DNA of 64,000 bases from Candidatus Acidulodesulfobacterium acidiphilum (GTDB lineage: Bacteria > SZUA-79 > Acidulodesulfobacterales > Acidulodesulfobacteraceae): contig SHMQ01000001.1 of the NCBI GenBank assembly GCA_008534395.1, positions 62,001 through 126,000 on the forward strand, in the 5' to 3' direction. Position numbers and translations under genes: made by a program. Below, in pieces: positions 1-42,205 of the stretch; the first letter of the stretch is position 1, and every line of letters begins with the position of its first letter. The notes beneath the pieces are model-generated. The model searched no databases and was not told the origin of the DNA. It saw nothing but the letters and a program-made list of their open reading frames with translations.

Positions 1-1102
1 TGGCATGCCCGGATACATGTATCTCCGATATGTTTTCGTAATAAACTTCGGCTCCTCTTTTATAAAGATTATTTATTATTTTGGATATAGCTTTTTCGTT
101 TCCGGGAATAAACTTAGAAGACATTAAAACAAGGTCGTTAGGCTTAATTTTAACATACTTATGGTCGTCGACCGAAATTCTGGACAGCGCAGACATTGCT
201 TCGCCTTGCGTTCCGGTCGTCAGTATTAAAAGTTCTTCCGGCTTGTAATAGCCGATAGTTTCTTCGTCTATTAAAATATCTTCGGGAATGCTTAAATAGC
301 CCAATTTTCTGGCTACCTTCGTGTACGTCATAAGGCTTCTTCCGCTGAATATAACCTTTTTATTAAACTCGGCGGCAAGCGAAAGCAGTTCCGAAATTCT
401 GTGAATATTGGAGGCAAAAAGAGCTACTATAATTCTGGTTTCGTTATCCCTGAAAATATTTCTGAAAGTTTTTTTTATATCGTTTTCCGATATCGTAAAT
501 CCCTCTTTTTCTATATTGGTAGAATCCGAAAATAATGCTAAAACGCCTCTATCCCCGTAATATGCAAGCCTGTTAATATCCGTTGCGGCATCTTTTTCGA
601 GCGTCTGGTCTAATTTAAAATCACCCGTATGTATAATGGTTCCTACAGGAGTTTTTATTGCAAGGCTTGCTCCGTCTATTATAGAATGCGCTACCCTTAT
701 AAATTCTATTTCAAAATCGCCGAGAGTAATCGTATTTCCGGTTTTGACGGTGAAAAGAGATACTTTAAAAGGCAGGTCGTGTTCTTTTAGTTTTTCTTCA
801 AGTATTCCAAGAGTAAAGGGCGTGCCGAATATCGGAATGTTAAACTCCCTTAACACATACGGTATGGCGCCTATATGGTCTTCGTGCCCGTGGGTAAGAA
901 CGATTCCTCTAATTTTTTTCTTTTTTTCGGGGTCGTATAAATATCTTATGTCGGGAATTACCATGTCTATTCCCAGCATGTAATCCTCCGGAAACATAAT
1001 TCCGGAATCTACTATTATAATGTCTTTTTCGGTCTCGTAAACCATCATATTGAGACCTATTTCGCCGAGTCCGCCGAGAGGTATTACTTTTAACTTAGGC
1101 AT
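1..1102 (-). CDS. rnj: Ribonuclease J (N-terminal part, runs off window start)
   Basis: Metallo-beta-lactamase/beta-CASP ribonuclease, a cytoplasmic enzyme of RNA processing and decay. My translation begins MPKLKVIPLGGLGEIGLNMM and contains the zinc motif LTHGHEDHIGA (HxHxDH). Near the window edge it reads IHVSGHA, a beta-CASP signature. About 367 codons are present against a usual ~550, so the C-terminal third lies outside the window. The start is the ATG at 1102. It is followed 3' of the start by a minus-strand run of unrelated genes. Identification is from family motifs and is secure; the J1/J2 subtype cannot be told. Confidence 0.93.
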   Translation of the reverse strand, partial: MPKLKVIPLGGLGEIGLNMMVYETEKDIIIVDSGIMFPEDYMLGIDMVIPDIRYLYDPEKKKKIRGIVLTHGHEDHIGAIPYVLREFNIPIFGTPFTLGILEEKLKEHDLPFKVSLFTVKTGNTITLGDFEIEFIRVAHSIIDGASLAIKTPVGTIIHTGDFKLDQTLEKDAATDINRLAYYGDRGVLALFSDSTNIEKEGFTISENDIKKTFRNIFRDNETRIIVALFASNIHRISELLSLAAEFNKKVIFSGRSLMTYTKVARKLGYLSIPEDILIDEETIGYYKPEELLILTTGTQGEAMSALSRISVDDHKYVKIKPNDLVLMSSKFIPGNEKAISKIINNLYKRGAEVYYENISEIHVSGHA

Positions 1103-1136
1103 TTATTTTTATATTTTTATTTTTTTTATTAGTTAA

Positions 1137-1931
1137 TTAATTTACAACGTCGTTAATTTTATCATCTGATGCTTTTTTATTCAAGACCTCTAGTATTTCG
1201 TCTTCTATCGTTTTGATTATATCGTCTTCTTTGCCGGACGTAAAATTCTTTTTCTTTTCGGATGCTTCAATAGGCTTTAAAATATGAAGTTCGACTTTTT
1301 GTCCGGGATGGATTGTAAGGCTGTTTTTCCTTAAAATATTTACCGTACCTTTAATAACGACTGGAAGAACGGTCGGATTGCCCTGTTTCAAAAACATATT
1401 GAGCCCGCCTTTTTTAAAACTTAAAAGTTTTCCGTCCAAAGACCTTGTACCTTCGGGAAAAATGAGTATGGAGGTTTTGTTTTTAATGAGTTCGGTAGAT
1501 TTTTTAACGCTTTTTAGCGCTCTTCTTAAATTTTCCCTGTCTATAGCAATATATCCGAGTCTTTTCATAGCCCAACCGAGGAAAGGTATTTTAAAAAGCG
1601 ATGCTTTTGCAATAAATTTAAAATTTAAATCGAGCGAAGCTAGTAAAACGAATATGTCGAAATAACTCTGGTGGTTAGGCGTAATAATATAAGATTTCTG
1701 CGAAGATATATTTTCGGCGCCTGTGACGTCAACCTTTATCATGCAGGCTTTTAATATAACTTTTGCCCATAATTTTGCAATACTCTGTGAGGTATCTTCG
1801 CTAAAAGACGAAACTATAACGGCTAATATCCCTGAAATCATCGTGAGCATGGTTATAACTGCCCAAAAATATAAACTTAAAAGAAAATCCGTTATCATGC
1901 TCTTTCGTATAAAAACTAAATAACCCTCCAT
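1137..1931 (-). CDS. plsC: 1-acyl-sn-glycerol-3-phosphate acyltransferase
   Basis: Membrane-bound acyltransferase that makes phosphatidic acid from lysophosphatidic acid in phospholipid synthesis. A hydrophobic segment spans about residues 14-42. The catalytic NHxxxxD block is NHQSYFD (about residues 86-92), and the acceptor-binding FPEGTRS block is at about 158-164. Its length of 264 residues is normal for the family. The start is uncertain: the ATG at 1931 has no good ribosome site, and an in-frame ATG at 1898 is an alternative that keeps the membrane segment. It lies 35 bases upstream of rnj on the same strand. Confidence 0.88.
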   Translation of the reverse strand: MEGYLVFIRKSMITDFLLSLYFWAVITMLTMISGILAVIVSSFSEDTSQSIAKLWAKVILKACMIKVDVTGAENISSQKSYIITPNHQSYFDIFVLLASLDLNFKFIAKASLFKIPFLGWAMKRLGYIAIDRENLRRALKSVKKSTELIKNKTSILIFPEGTRSLDGKLLSFKKGGLNMFLKQGNPTVLPVVIKGTVNILRKNSLTIHPGQKVELHILKPIEASEKKKNFTSGKEDDIIKTIEDEILEVLNKKASDDKINDVVN

Positions 1932-1954
1932 TTGTACTAAAGATAGGTTTATTG

Positions 1955-2362
1955 TTAGAATAATGCTTCATGAATTTCGGTTGCGACAAGCTCCCCGCTT
2001 GAATTCTTAACGGCTAAAATTTTAACCGTTTCACCCTTGGTAAAAGACGAGCAGGAAACGGTTTGCATATTCATCGTGCTTCCGTCGGACATAGGGGCTT
2101 TGCATACGGTTGAACCCGTAATAATGCAGGTTGCACCATTATACAGTGTTATGGACGAACTGCTTATATTTTTAATCGTACCGGCAAAAGAATATGTCCC
2201 ATAAGCCGGTTTTACTATTACAGTACCGGTTGCTAAAATCAATACGGGTTTTGACTTCATTGACAACCGGTTAGCGCCTAAAACGGTTGTGGGAATACTT
2301 AATGTTATAAATGCAATAACAAATAGTCTTATTAAAAATCTTTTTTCCCCAAATATCATCAT
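1955..2362 (-). CDS. Exported hypothetical protein
   Basis: 135 residues with a clear signal peptide: basic start, hydrophobic core at about residues 11-28, and a likely cleavage after VLGA. The mature part is Ser/Thr rich and contains a GTIKNISSSSITL stretch like those in small periplasmic beta-barrel (DUF5666-type) domains. It has three cysteines, two of them flanking a GSTV turn. I do not recognise a specific function. It follows pilY1 on the same strand after a hairpin at 2408-2427, so it may be weakly coupled to the pilin operon. Confidence 0.6.
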   Translation of the reverse strand: MMIFGEKRFLIRLFVIAFITLSIPTTVLGANRLSMKSKPVLILATGTVIVKPAYGTYSFAGTIKNISSSSITLYNGATCIITGSTVCKAPMSDGSTMNMQTVSCSSFTKGETVKILAVKNSSGELVATEIHEALF

Positions 2363-2407
2363 CTTACTCCTTCCTTATTAATTAAAAATTATACCTTATA
2401 AACCGCC

Positions 2408-2427
2408 GTTCCTGCAAAAGCAGGAAC
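2408..2427. terminator. Hairpin between pilY1 and the exported protein gene
   Basis: Perfect 8-bp inverted repeat (GTTCCTGC / GCAGGAAC) with a 4-base AAAA loop, just after the pilY1 stop. No T-run follows on the minus strand, so it could be a weak terminator, an attenuator or a 3'-end stabilising hairpin. Confidence 0.5.
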
Positions 2428-2460
2428 ACGTTCTAATATTCCACTCTTCTAAATAAATAT

Positions 2461-5400
2461 TTACGGTAACCCGAACCATGATGTCGGCGTAATGTTGGCA
2501 ACAGGACCTGGAACATACTCCGTAATAACTTTCCCTGTGGAAGTTGTCACGATAAGAGTATTGCCAGATATAACCGGAGCCGAAGGCACTCCTTCTCCAA
2601 GGTTGATAGATTGTTCCGTAGATGAAGTAGGAGTTGAACCGGAGCCGGTTATCGGTTCCGAAATAGTTCCGTTGCTTTCGATTGCGCTTCCCCCGTTAGT
2701 ATAATAAACGGCATAAAGCCGACCCGTGCCCTGTCCGCAAGATGTAGAGGATGGAGCATATGTAGTAAAATATACGATATTATCATAAACTACAGGGGAA
2801 GATACGACTCTTTCATTGGTGTGAGGCAAATCTATTACCCATCCGACATCTCCGTTAGAAATTACCGATAAATTTGTTGTTGTAGTACTAGTTCCACTTG
2901 AATTTGTAGTTGTTTTGGTCACGGTTTCGCTTGTATTAGTTGCATTATAAAGGTTAGTTTCCGAATAAGGAGCACCCGACGGACATGTGCCGACCGGGGT
3001 TACAGTGGTTTGTCCGGTATCTATGCCTATAAGTTCATTCGTATTTGCACTTGTAGTGTTATTTAAATCTGCCCTATTGCCGGTTCCAAAAAAAAGCCAA
3101 AAATTATTAGAAACATCATTTGTGGTCGCCGGCGGATAAAAAATATTAAGTGGTGAATTGGAAGCAAAAATTCTGCATCCTGTCCAGTTTGATTTCCCGC
3201 TGGAAGCATACGGCATAGTATAATCTGGAATATCGAAAGCCCACATCTGTCCTCCTAAATCCCCTACATAAAAGGCTTCAATCCTGCCGTTAGGACTAAA
3301 AATAGGCGAAACAGCTGAAGGTATCGAATATTTCATATTGGCATCATCTGCACTGTCGAATTTCCATAATACCTGCTCATAGGCATAATTTGGTGTCGTC
3401 GTAGAAGAAATATTAACTGGATTTGGCGATGCATAAAGAGCATAAACAGCATTACCCGCCGAAGTCGAAGTAGAAGTATAATAGCCGCCGCCTGTAAACC
3501 CCGCATATATTTTAGCATATTCGGGGTCATTTAAAGGATTATTTGCGCAAATCCCGTTCGTGGAAGTAGAATAAGGCAGGCATACATACGATATTACAGG
3601 CTTTGACCACGTATATCCCATATTGCCGTCAGGATTGCTGGAAGAAGAGTAAGCGTCGGAAAAATCCCATAACGGGTCAGGATAACTACTGCCTGAAGGA
3701 TTTGTAAGGCCTAAGGCATAATAACTCATTCCGCCGTTTCTTTCTCCGCCTATTAAGATTGTATGCCAGCTGTCATTAATAAATGCGCTGTTAGAACTAT
3801 TTGCACTGTTAGAGCTAAGAACTCCGTTAACGACAAAAAGATTATTGAAATATACGTCGGAAACGGAAGGCGTAGAATCTACAAAAAAAGGCGTAGAGGA
3901 ACTTAAAGAATTGGCATACCACTGAGGAAGTTCCGTCAACAAATTGGGAGGAATATAACCAAAAATTTCCTGTCCGTTATTCGCATTAAATCCATGCAGC
4001 ATTCCGTCGTTTGCTCCGACTACAAGAACAGGAGTACGTCCGCTGTTACTATTTGCAAAAGCCTGATACGATGGAACCGAAAAATATGGAAAGACCGAAG
4101 GCGACCCTATAAAAACAGGGTCGGAATGATAAATCGCTCCTAATTTCCAGTCGGTATATGGACTTCCAAGATTTGCGCCAGGATTCAAAACAAACGGGAT
4201 TACATTATCTGTTGCGTTTGCCGTAGTCGTTCCCATTAATGTTGCCAACGCAGAAGATTCTGACGTATTAAAAGCCAGCGGGGAGGTCTGCCCGTTGCTC
4301 GAATCTAATTCCGAAGTTAAAATATTTCTATTTGAATTACCCGTTAATTGCTCTCCCGCCGACCATATTGAATCGCCGGTATTTACTTCTATATCCCCTA
4401 CAGGACAAGTTGCAATGGTATCATTTGGATTCGAACATGTTTCGGCGACGACGCCGTTTGGACCGACAAGCTCGCCGGATGAATTAAGCTCGAATTCGAA
4501 TAAATTGCCTTCGCCCCATAAGCGGTGAGGCATAGACGGCGTAAAATTAGCGTAATACACATCGTTATTCGAACCGTAAACCTGATGTATTACCGGAGAC
4601 GTGAAAGATTCTGTTTGAGACTGGATTTGTTTTAATATATTGGTGAGATACTGCACTAAAACCGAATAATTGTTAGCAAGGTAAACGGTGCCGGAAACGG
4701 TTATGCCGTTAGATAACGTATTTAAAGAGTTAGAAAGAGTTATGGTGGTAGAAGTTCCTGAATTATCGTAAATACTTGTTACGGTAGCGCAGTCGCTCGG
4801 ACTATTATACGTCATGCTATAGTTATTATCGGCTTCGCAGGTTACGCTGGTATCGCCGTTGTCCGAAACGGTGTCTCCTACAATAATGCCGTTTGTAGTA
4901 GGATTCGAACCTATATTGAGCGTGTCCGGCGTTGTACCCTGCTTTGCCGCAAAATTTAACGTCGGCGTCGCTCCGCCGCTAGATACGGTATAATATTCAT
5001 TAGGGTCTATGCCAGCACCCGCGTCTGCCATTTCTTGAAGATAACTGGTAGGATTGGTCGGACTGTAGCCAAAACCGACCATATAGGTTACAATCGGTTT
5101 TTTTATTTTTTGCGTGCTACTTGAACCACCGAGATTGTAAATATCATAAACTTCCAAAGGAGTTTGATTGCTAGGAATACCGTTAATGTTACCGTTAGAG
5201 CATGATGTGTTGACAATATTCGGAGGAATATCGTCCGCATTCCAGTCGCATCCCATATTTGCCTCTCCGTCCGTCACTATTATCGAAAAATACCTTAAAC
5301 ACTCGTTTGCCGAACTGCTTGAACTGCTACTGCTGTTTGTTATCGCATTGTCAAAAAACTCGTACATATCGGCAACGGAATCCGACATAGGCGTGCCTCC

Positions 5401-38933: not shown

Positions 38934-40997
38934 TTAAACAACCCCGACCAAATTTCTTCCGGCATTTTTTGCTTTATAAAGCCCTAAATCTACCCTTTTA
39001 AGTAGATCGGCTTCGTTGTCGGAAAAAATAAGCGACGCAACGCCTAAGCTTATAGTAACCCTTTCTCCTATTTTAAAATCGTGGTTCTGAACCTTAAGCC
39101 TCAATCTTTCGGCAAGTTCTAAAGCCGTTTCTATAGGAGTTTCCGGCGCAAGCACCATAAATTCTTCTCCGCCGTATCTCGCAAAGAAGTCGGTGTTTCT
39201 AAGCTCTTTTTTGACTAATTTAGCAAGATCTTTTAAAATTGTATCATCGGTATCGTGCCCGCAGGAATCGTTTATATTTTTAAATCTGTCAATGTCGAAC
39301 ATAATTATAGAAAAGGGCCTTTCGTATCTTTTAGCAAGGTTTAAAAGTTCGGTAAGTTTTAAATCCATAGACCTTCTGTTATAAATTCCCGTTAAGGAGT
39401 CAATTTCGGAAAGTTCTTTGTATTTGTCTTTCTCGATAAGCATATTCTGCTCTCTCAATAACTGATCGGTAACGTCCGTAAAAATTGCAAGACCAGCATC
39501 TCCTCCGTTGTAAGTTACCTTCGTTCTGAATAAGTCTATATAACGTATGTTTCCGGCTTTATCGTATTTATAAATAAAATGGGAAGAAAATTCATCGGTG
39601 TGATGCATATTAAATAGAGAAATACTTGAAGAATAAAGCTGAGTTTCGTCTATCCTAAATATATCGAATGGACTGCCGGCAATAAGTTCTTCTTTGGTCA
39701 AACCTAATAAATCAAGCAGAGCCGAATTTACGTATAATAATTTATCTTTATCGTATAAAGCTATTCCCGAATTAATATTTTCAATTAAAACTTTAAAAAT
39801 ATTTCTTTCCTGTTCTAAAGATTTTCTTAAATTAACCTGTTCGGTAATATCCGTCCAGCTTGCTACTCTTACTATTTCTCCTTTATATCTGACCGAAACC
39901 GCAAAAAGATAAATCCATAACTCTTCTCCTGATTTTTTTATTATTTTATCAGTTCGTGAATATTTATGGCCGATATCGCTTAACCCTTTTTCGATAGATT
40001 CTTGCAGCTCTTTATAGTATTCAGACGAAAAAAATTCCCAAGAGAATTTACCTTTTAGTTCTTCTTGAGTGCAACCGAGCATATTCAGGAGAGCCGGGTT
40101 TGCGTAAATAAATTTTTCTTTGTGTATATCTATTCCTATCGGAATATTTTCGGAAATAATCCTAAACGTCTCTTCAGATTCTTTAAGTTTGTCTTCGAGA
40201 ATTTTCTTTTCGGTTATATCTACAACTATCCTTAAAATATAAGTTTTGCCGTTATAATTAACAGTCGCAAAAAAAGATTCTACATCTTTTATATCTCCGT
40301 TTTTAAGCCTGTGTTTAAAAAAATTATGATTCAAACCTTCTTTTAAAGCCTGCTTCCTATAATTTTTTAAATCATTATCGGATATGAACGGGTTAATATC
40401 CCGCACCGTCATATTTTTAAATTCTTCTTTTGAATAACCGTAAAATTCTACGGCTTTTTTGTTTGCATTAACTATAACGCCGGATTCGATATCTATGATA
40501 AAAGTAGGAACCGGAATGTTTTCAAAAAAAGTTTCGATTCTTTTTTCAGACGATTCTGCCTTTTCTTTTGCTTTTTTAACGATGTCTATTTCGGATATAA
40601 ATTCTGTTATATTAGTGTGAGATTCAAAAAACAATTGGCTGTCGGAATCGTCCCTGAAAGCTTCTACTTTATATAGATATCCCTTATGATTATGAATTAC
40701 GTTGGAAACGTTTATATCTTTATTTTCTTTAAGTTCTTTTATAGGACATCTTATCTCCTCCGACTTCAGCTCGTAGCAGGGTATATCGTAACCGTGGGAT
40801 ATTTTATAGCATTTACAGGATAAACTACCTGCAGTTTTTGAATTTTCTTCAAATTTATTAATGCAGTTATTATCGGTTTTATAAACTTCTTCGGCGGTTT
40901 TATTTAAAAATATTACGTTAAAATTTGCGTTAATTGCCAGTATAGGGCACAGAAGTTTGTCAAAAGCCGAATAATCTTTCGTCGCATATGTTTTCAT
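38934..40997 (-). CDS. Multi-PAS diguanylate cyclase
   Basis: 687 residues, soluble. Four PAS-type domains in series (about 10-140, 150-270, 275-395, 400-515) precede a GGDEF domain. The active site is GGEEF near residue 607, and RNTD five residues before it forms the RxxD inhibitory site, so the enzyme should make cyclic di-GMP with product inhibition. The first PAS carries a Cys cluster (CKCYKISHGYDIPC...CPI) seen in redox- or heme-linked PAS domains. No receiver or membrane segment. Possible targets in the window are the pilus genes, by inference. Confidence 0.92.
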   Translation of the reverse strand: MKTYATKDYSAFDKLLCPILAINANFNVIFLNKTAEEVYKTDNNCINKFEENSKTAGSLSCKCYKISHGYDIPCYELKSEEIRCPIKELKENKDINVSNVIHNHKGYLYKVEAFRDDSDSQLFFESHTNITEFISEIDIVKKAKEKAESSEKRIETFFENIPVPTFIIDIESGVIVNANKKAVEFYGYSKEEFKNMTVRDINPFISDNDLKNYRKQALKEGLNHNFFKHRLKNGDIKDVESFFATVNYNGKTYILRIVVDITEKKILEDKLKESEETFRIISENIPIGIDIHKEKFIYANPALLNMLGCTQEELKGKFSWEFFSSEYYKELQESIEKGLSDIGHKYSRTDKIIKKSGEELWIYLFAVSVRYKGEIVRVASWTDITEQVNLRKSLEQERNIFKVLIENINSGIALYDKDKLLYVNSALLDLLGLTKEELIAGSPFDIFRIDETQLYSSSISLFNMHHTDEFSSHFIYKYDKAGNIRYIDLFRTKVTYNGGDAGLAIFTDVTDQLLREQNMLIEKDKYKELSEIDSLTGIYNRRSMDLKLTELLNLAKRYERPFSIIMFDIDRFKNINDSCGHDTDDTILKDLAKLVKKELRNTDFFARYGGEEFMVLAPETPIETALELAERLRLKVQNHDFKIGERVTISLGVASLIFSDNEADLLKRVDLGLYKAKNAGRNLVGVV

Positions 40998-41139: not shown

Positions 41140-42029
41140 TTAATCTTCCAATGACTTTTTTAGTATAGATATAGCTTTTACTTCTATCTGCCTTACGCGC
41201 TCTTTTGTTAGCCCTATCATTAAGCCGACTTCATTCAAAGTTTTCGGATTTTCGCCATCAAGACCGTATCTTGAAATTAATACTTTTTTTTGTAATTCGT
41301 CAAGATTATAAAAAGATTCGTCCAATATCTCAAGTTTTTCGTAGTCTATTAAAATTTCACATGGAGATATAGATTCTTTATCTTCGGTGATATATTTAGA
41401 AAAGCTACCCCCCCCCCACGACCTAAAATATTTATGTTTTCATCATTGCTTTCGTAAGAATCGTCAAGAGAGGATATAATAAAATTGGAATTAAATATTC
41501 CTTCTATTTTTTCTTCTTTAATTCCTATAAATTCGGAAATCTCAGATATATAAGGTTTTCTTTTAAGTTTTACTTCTATTTCTTTTGAAGCTTTACTGCA
41601 TTTGCAAAAATTATCCGATATATGTATTGGTATGCGGATAAGCCTTGCCGAATTGGATATTCCTCTTTCTATAGACTGACGTATCCACCATATGGCATAT
41701 GTTGAAAACTTGAATCCTTTTTTTGGAATAAATTTATCTACTGCCTTTATAAGCCCTATATTGCCTTCCATTATTAAATCGCCGAATGAAAGCCCCTTTC
41801 CGATGAATTTCTTAGCTACGTTTATAACCAGCCTTAAATTAGATTTTATCATTATTTGCCTTGCCGCTTTATCGCCGTCGCATACTTTTAGGGCGAGTTC
41901 ATATTCTTCTTCGCGGGAAAGCAAAGGATAACGTTTAATCTTATTGAAATAAAATCTTAAATTTCCATCGTACTCGTTATAATAATTATAGCCGTTTAAT
42001 GAATCCAAGTATTCGTCGTCGTTTGCCAT
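41140..42029 (-). CDS. rpoS: RpoS-like sigma factor, frame interrupted at a C10 tract
   Basis: Region 1.2 (YFNKIKRYPLLSREEEYELA), region 2 (NLRLVINVAKKFIGKGLSFGDLIMEGNIG, then WWIRQSIERGI) and region 3 are in one frame; region 4 (RYGLDGENPKTLNEVGLMIGLTKERVRQIE) is in another. The frames meet at ten C (41408-41417, G on the coding strand). Eleven or eight G would give one protein of 296 or 295 residues. With ten, the product stops at 41349 and lacks region 4. WWIRQSIER and the length fit RpoS. AGGGGG sets the start at 42029. Probably a phase-variable gene rather than a dead one. Confidence 0.8.
41408..41417. repeat. Poly-C tract (10) inside the sigma factor gene
   Basis: Ten consecutive C on the plus strand in an AT-rich genome, placed between sigma regions 3 and 4. 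The next longest G/C runs I noticed in the window are seven. Confidence 0.9.
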
Positions 42030-42205
42030 TATGTTATTCCCCCTATTTTTCGTCAATCGTTTTGACGTAATTCTATATAACAACATATCATAAAAGTTCG
42101 GATTGTCAAATAAACATTGGCAAAAAATACGTTGCGTTCAAGAGGCAATTACAGCTTTCGCCTATACTTTTATACTATAAAAAAAATGTAAAAAAAATAT
42201 ACGAC

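Follow-up and report, generated by a model that had tools for sequence, protein, structure and literature searches.

A poly-G tract dividing an accessory RpoS-like sigma factor gene is a probable phase-variation switch in Candidatus Acidulodesulfobacterium

Phase variation at runs of G or C is known mainly from host-associated bacteria, in which it mostly affects surface genes. Mismatch repair is weak or absent in the poly-G/C contingency systems of Campylobacter, Helicobacter and Neisseria. The contingency genes of these three genera carry a long G/C run within the open reading frame, at which the frame is switched by a change of a single base, and each genome contains many such runs; the gene described here resembles them in the first respect, and its genus does so in the second, with a lack of MutS matches (see below) as a further likeness. 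Regulators can also be controlled in this manner: swrA in Bacillus subtilis and flgR/flgS in Campylobacter jejuni are phase-variable by homopolymer slippage within their coding sequences (PMC5386303, PMC7677240). Homopolymer phase variation is thus a known kind of switch, and regulators so switched are already known. Within the literature that we searched (which left most subscription journals uncovered), we found no example of a homopolymer run inside a sigma factor gene, or of a sigma factor that is phase-variable in this way.

The window (the whole 64-kb stretch of DNA that was analysed) very likely belongs to the Candidatus Acidulodesulfobacterium AP4 genome, which was obtained from an acid mine drainage metagenome by SPAdes assembly of Illumina reads (PMC6776010). 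Open reading frames, Pfam and NCBIfam together delineate a gene of the sigma-70 family on its minus strand (42029–41140), the frame of which is broken by a run of ten C at positions 41408–41417 (G10 on the coding strand) that separates regions 1.2–3 from region 4. The frame that begins at the ATG at 42029 contains sigma regions 1.2, 2 and 3 (as identified by Pfam), extends across the run and terminates at 41349, such that its predicted product (41349–42029, minus strand) comprises the N-terminal half followed by a 19-residue out-of-frame tail. Region 4 is encoded in a different frame that extends from the tract to the end of the gene (41140–41407, minus strand). Inspection of the sequence upstream of the ATG suggests a possible ribosome binding site, AGGGGG, at 42039–42044 on the same strand. 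A separate internal start for region 4 was considered and rejected, as no start codon is found in frame shortly after the run in either this gene or the ortholog described below. A gene encoding a PAS/GGDEF protein (38934–40997), also on the minus strand, follows the sigma factor gene after an interval of 142 bases.

The initial annotation of this locus had described the C10 run as the meeting point of two sigma factor halves in different frames, had calculated that a run of 11 or 8 bases would yield a protein of 296 or 295 residues, respectively, and had proposed that the OFF form would retain regions 1.2–3 and lack region 4. The coordinates and open reading frames confirm the first point, the frames themselves the second (11 and 8 are the in-frame tract lengths), and the agreement of Pfam with the frames the third. 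Its further statement that the run far exceeds any other G/C run in the window also holds, the second longest being of only 7 bases; no run of A or T is longer than 8. Markov models of orders 0–4 predicted 0.002–0.02 G/C runs of at least 10 bases per 64 kb and 0.06–0.6 per 2.09 Mb genome, as compared with four observed in the genome of the window organism. The homopolymer within this reading frame is therefore much longer than expected by chance, and because the two frames adjoin at this run in each of two species, a change of one base within it switches a conserved frame on or off.

The hypothetical joined protein has RpoS as its best NCBIfam model (256.6 bits), although it does not reach the curated cut-off of 378.7 bits for the RpoS equivalog (TIGR02394). 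Pfam places regions 1.2, 2, 3 and 4 in order along it (with region 3 slightly below its gathering score), and the best solved relatives of the protein are RpoS chains. We conclude from these matches that it is a predicted group 2 member of the sigma-70 family. A core RpoS-like gene is present in nearly all genomes of the family, and the window organism (G000) possesses an intact copy at G000:C35 in addition to RpoD at C7. In a phylogenetic tree the window gene and its counterpart from a second genome (G011) form one clade (clade A; support 100/100) that has a long stem and is separate from the core copies. Tree and gene content together identify the window gene, at the level of sequence, as an accessory RpoS-like paralog that is not the only RpoS-like factor of the cell; its earlier designation as a general stress sigma factor is accordingly not sustained. 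In another genome (G013:C24, L261), a run of N separates the core RpoS-like gene from a downstream repeat of its own 3′ end, an arrangement that resembles a scaffold join fault.

The clade A ortholog from G011 (contig JAKAQA010000077.1, MAG YF1.bin97), the N-terminal half of which is 74% identical to that of the window gene, was the only close relative returned by a scan of genome contigs; a scan of viral contigs returned distant sigma factors only, and the three that were examined all lacked the tract. The ortholog carries GGGAGGGGGGGGGGC (G10) at the same site (L010, 1291–1300), with an identical frame break. For a third ortholog, from G015, the contig breaks off at the codon immediately following the tract. 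The G011 and G015 copies share the same downstream neighbor, and the neighbors of the G011 copy differ from the PAS/GGDEF neighbor of the window gene. Both readable clade A copies (n = 2) thus have ten G and are out of frame, and no in-frame copy was seen between them. Synonymous divergence between the two is near saturation (dS of approximately 1.6–1.9), at which interruptions would have accumulated in a neutral run. The initial annotation had named disappearance of the tract from all relatives as a refutation; this was not seen, since G10 is kept in this diverged ortholog. We conclude from this comparison that the tract is an inherited feature and not an isolated fault.

The same observations bear on whether the break is merely a sequencing or assembly error, with the true tract in frame and the gene an ordinary one. 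Homopolymers are error-prone, the window genome is a MAG derived from short reads, and G/C runs of at least 10 bases in the genus are over-represented at contig ends, with 11 of 69 located within 150 bp of one (versus 1.5 expected), as would be anticipated if such runs either hamper assembly or vary in length. However, ten G and the same break are present in two independent MAGs, and a miscount of one or two bases would leave the tract, its conservation and the repair defect described below standing. We regard an error of this kind as very unlikely.

Alignments indicate that the tract encodes a short insert, LGRGGGG (41406–41426, minus strand), in region 3.2, the linker that joins regions 3 and 4. 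The insert is absent from 29 intact homologs (27 within the family and two outside it), and none of 26 core genes contains a G/C run longer than 6. GGG represents only 12.5% of glycine codons in the long open reading frames of the window; three consecutive GGG codons are therefore not ordinary coding sequence, and a need for glycine in a linker would not by itself explain the choice of GGG.

We compared rates of nonsynonymous and synonymous substitution on either side of the break. Between G000 and G011, dN/dS is approximately 0.10 for both the N-terminal half (0.158/1.63) and the C-terminal half (0.184/1.86), and the C-terminal half gives 0.13 (0.101/0.79) for G011 versus G015; region 4, which lies past the break, thus displays values of 0.10–0.14 among three species. 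No further stops or frameshifts beyond the tract break are found in either readable copy. By these ratios, purifying selection acts equally on the two halves, which argues against an old pseudogene, and the retention of region 4 despite its being out of frame in both assemblies implies that the whole protein must be made at least sometimes. An already dead, decaying accessory gene, with G runs that represent neutral expansions in the absence of mismatch repair, would account for the out-of-frame state of both readable copies, for the patchy distribution of the gene on long branches and, through a mutation bias that could lengthen G runs, for the tract itself. It is difficult to reconcile with the constraint on region 4 in three species, with the lack of any other stop or shift and with a tract that is pure despite saturated synonymous sites, and we assign it little weight.

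Selection on both halves is also compatible with programmed recoding, in which either slippage of the polymerase at G10 or −1 frameshifting by ribosomes along the GGG codons would produce a set fraction of full-length protein from a gene whose DNA stays out of frame. With ten G each, both clade A copies would require an identical −1 shift for a full-length product, and a run of GGG codons permits −1 re-pairing. In opposition to this explanation, RNA downstream of the tract folds no better than shuffled sequence (z scores of −0.43 and −0.33), such that the definition of a programmed −1 frameshift gene (a slip site plus a stable stimulatory structure) is not met: the G run could serve as the slip site, but there is no structure. 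The tract also exceeds the length that a slip site needs, and the tracts of a second sigma factor clade and of an HD-GYP gene (both described below) are of variable length, with some forms in frame. Among the alternatives to phase variation, programmed slippage at G10 is the foremost and is not excluded, though we consider it unlikely.

The second clade consists of another accessory RpoS-like gene (46–48% identical), which occurs in the genus that includes G016, G023 and G027 and bears a poly-C tract near its 5′ end. The copy in G016 has C11 and is out of frame from an upstream ATG, that in G027 has C12 and is in frame, and that in G023 has C9, is in frame, and has an additional C12 near its 3′ end; the start codon is uncertain in G016 and G027, where an internal ATG follows the tract. 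A contig-end fragment from G012, in the genus of the window organism, consists of AAGGAGG, an ATG, a few codons and C12, also in frame. The 5′ tracts are thus 9, 11, 12 and 12 bases long, with three in frame and one out.

Across 16 genomes of the window's genus (∼27 Mb) we counted 69 G/C runs of at least 10 bases versus about 1–8 expected (an excess of ∼9- to 90-fold), whereas A/T runs of the same minimum length are rarer than expected (261 versus roughly 470–5000). Among genes of at least 150 residues that lie beside or across the tracts, the recurrent groups are PAS/GGDEF-like genes, HD-GYP genes and sigma factors (for the first two groups, domain content was verified on a single member each). 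Genes similar to a PAS/GGDEF sensor account for seven tracts and sigma factors for five loci, and in seven species the HD-GYP gene carries a tract at one and the same C-terminal position, with lengths of 10, 12, 13, 13, 15, 16 and 20. Many other tracts lie between genes, so that some may have no switching role, and the G/C runs may in part be a by-product of mutation bias.

In the HD-GYP/GAF gene of the window organism (L039, 1598–1610; G000:C30) and its orthologs (L159, L163, L166, L189, L191 and L194), variation in the length of the poly-G run affects nothing but the final few residues or the stop; the G012 tract is followed by a run of N. A G21 run near a contig end (L148, 2531–2551; G000:C22) lies directly before the point at which a GAF/PAS/GGDEF gene probably begins, and related sensor genes in other genomes have tracts near their ends or starts (L155, L156, L161, L165, L215 and L221). 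At L003 (G000:C2), G8 (906–913) and G9 (1501–1509), each followed by TATATG, occupy the ribosome binding position before two start codons, and a related gene pair (L173, L208) has longer G runs.

The complement of repair genes in these genomes was also surveyed. Searches of the 16 genus genomes gave no MutS1 match, and none of 30 family genomes (19 of high quality) yielded a MutS_V domain; nor was a true MutL found in the 16 genus genomes, which returned only weak MutL-like matches far below the cut-off. The two MutS searches were positive in 11 of 14 named control genomes. MutSL-type mismatch repair therefore appears, from these searches, to be absent. Without MutS, runs of such length should slip often.

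We believe that the tract is probably a slipped-strand phase-variation switch in an accessory RpoS-like sigma factor gene. This interpretation rests on the G10 run and same break in G011 together with the G015 contig that ends at the tract, on an insert missing from 29 intact homologs and equal selection on the two halves, on the mixed-frame tracts of the second sigma clade and the HD-GYP tract lengths of 10–20, and on an excess of G/C runs, accompanied by a deficit of A/T runs, in genomes with no MutS match. The conserved tract, the selection on two halves, the G-tract enrichment and the missing MutS likewise support the ON/OFF switch that had first been proposed. Against it stand the absence of read-level evidence for mixed lengths, the identical length and state of the two clade A copies, the low coverage of the G011 contig (5.6x according to its title) and the intergenic tracts, which hint at mutation bias.

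In the mechanism that we envision, gain or loss of a G during replication would move region 4 into or out of frame. ON cells would make the whole sigma factor (295–296 residues), while OFF cells would make regions 1.2–3 only, without the −35-binding region 4, and normal promoter use should then fail. As slippage would go uncorrected in the absence of MutS, both states would come to coexist in a clonal population, and a random subset of cells would express an accessory regulon, with the intact core RpoS-like factor still at hand. That switching occurs within a population, that OFF cells lose function and that a regulon exists are all inferences. A broader and more tentative possibility, about which we remain doubtful, is that poly-G/C tracts on signaling genes (the two accessory sigma clades, the HD-GYP gene and PAS/GGDEF sensors, in a family without MutS) randomize transcription and c-di-GMP states from cell to cell, and so form a stochastic regulatory network outside any host.

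If the switch is real, it would, being located in a sigma factor, flip an entire regulon in a single step, and finding it in sulfur/iron bacteria that live freely in acid mines would indicate that contingency genetics also serves non-host environments. Reads and metatranscriptomes exist for the AP4 genome (PMC6776010), and the switch is thus directly testable.

The present case differs from the contingency loci of Campylobacter, Helicobacter and Neisseria in that length variation within a population has not yet been shown, and in that its target is a sigma factor and its host organism a free-living acidophile. Its poly-G tract in a sigma factor gene also distinguishes it from swrA and flgR/flgS, which have A/T runs and encode a swarming regulator and a two-component system, respectively. 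Random or bistable expression of a sigma factor, as proposed here, has parallels in Clostridium difficile sigD (the flagellar switch) and Staphylococcus aureus sigma-H; however, the former relies on an upstream DNA inversion and the latter on a phase-variation-like event combined with translation control, rather than on the slippage proposed inside the window gene. The gene resembles RpoS (group 2) in possessing regions 1.2, 2, 3 and 4, and departs from it in scoring below the RpoS cut-off, in being a second copy beside an intact core gene, and in carrying a poly-G insert in region 3.2.
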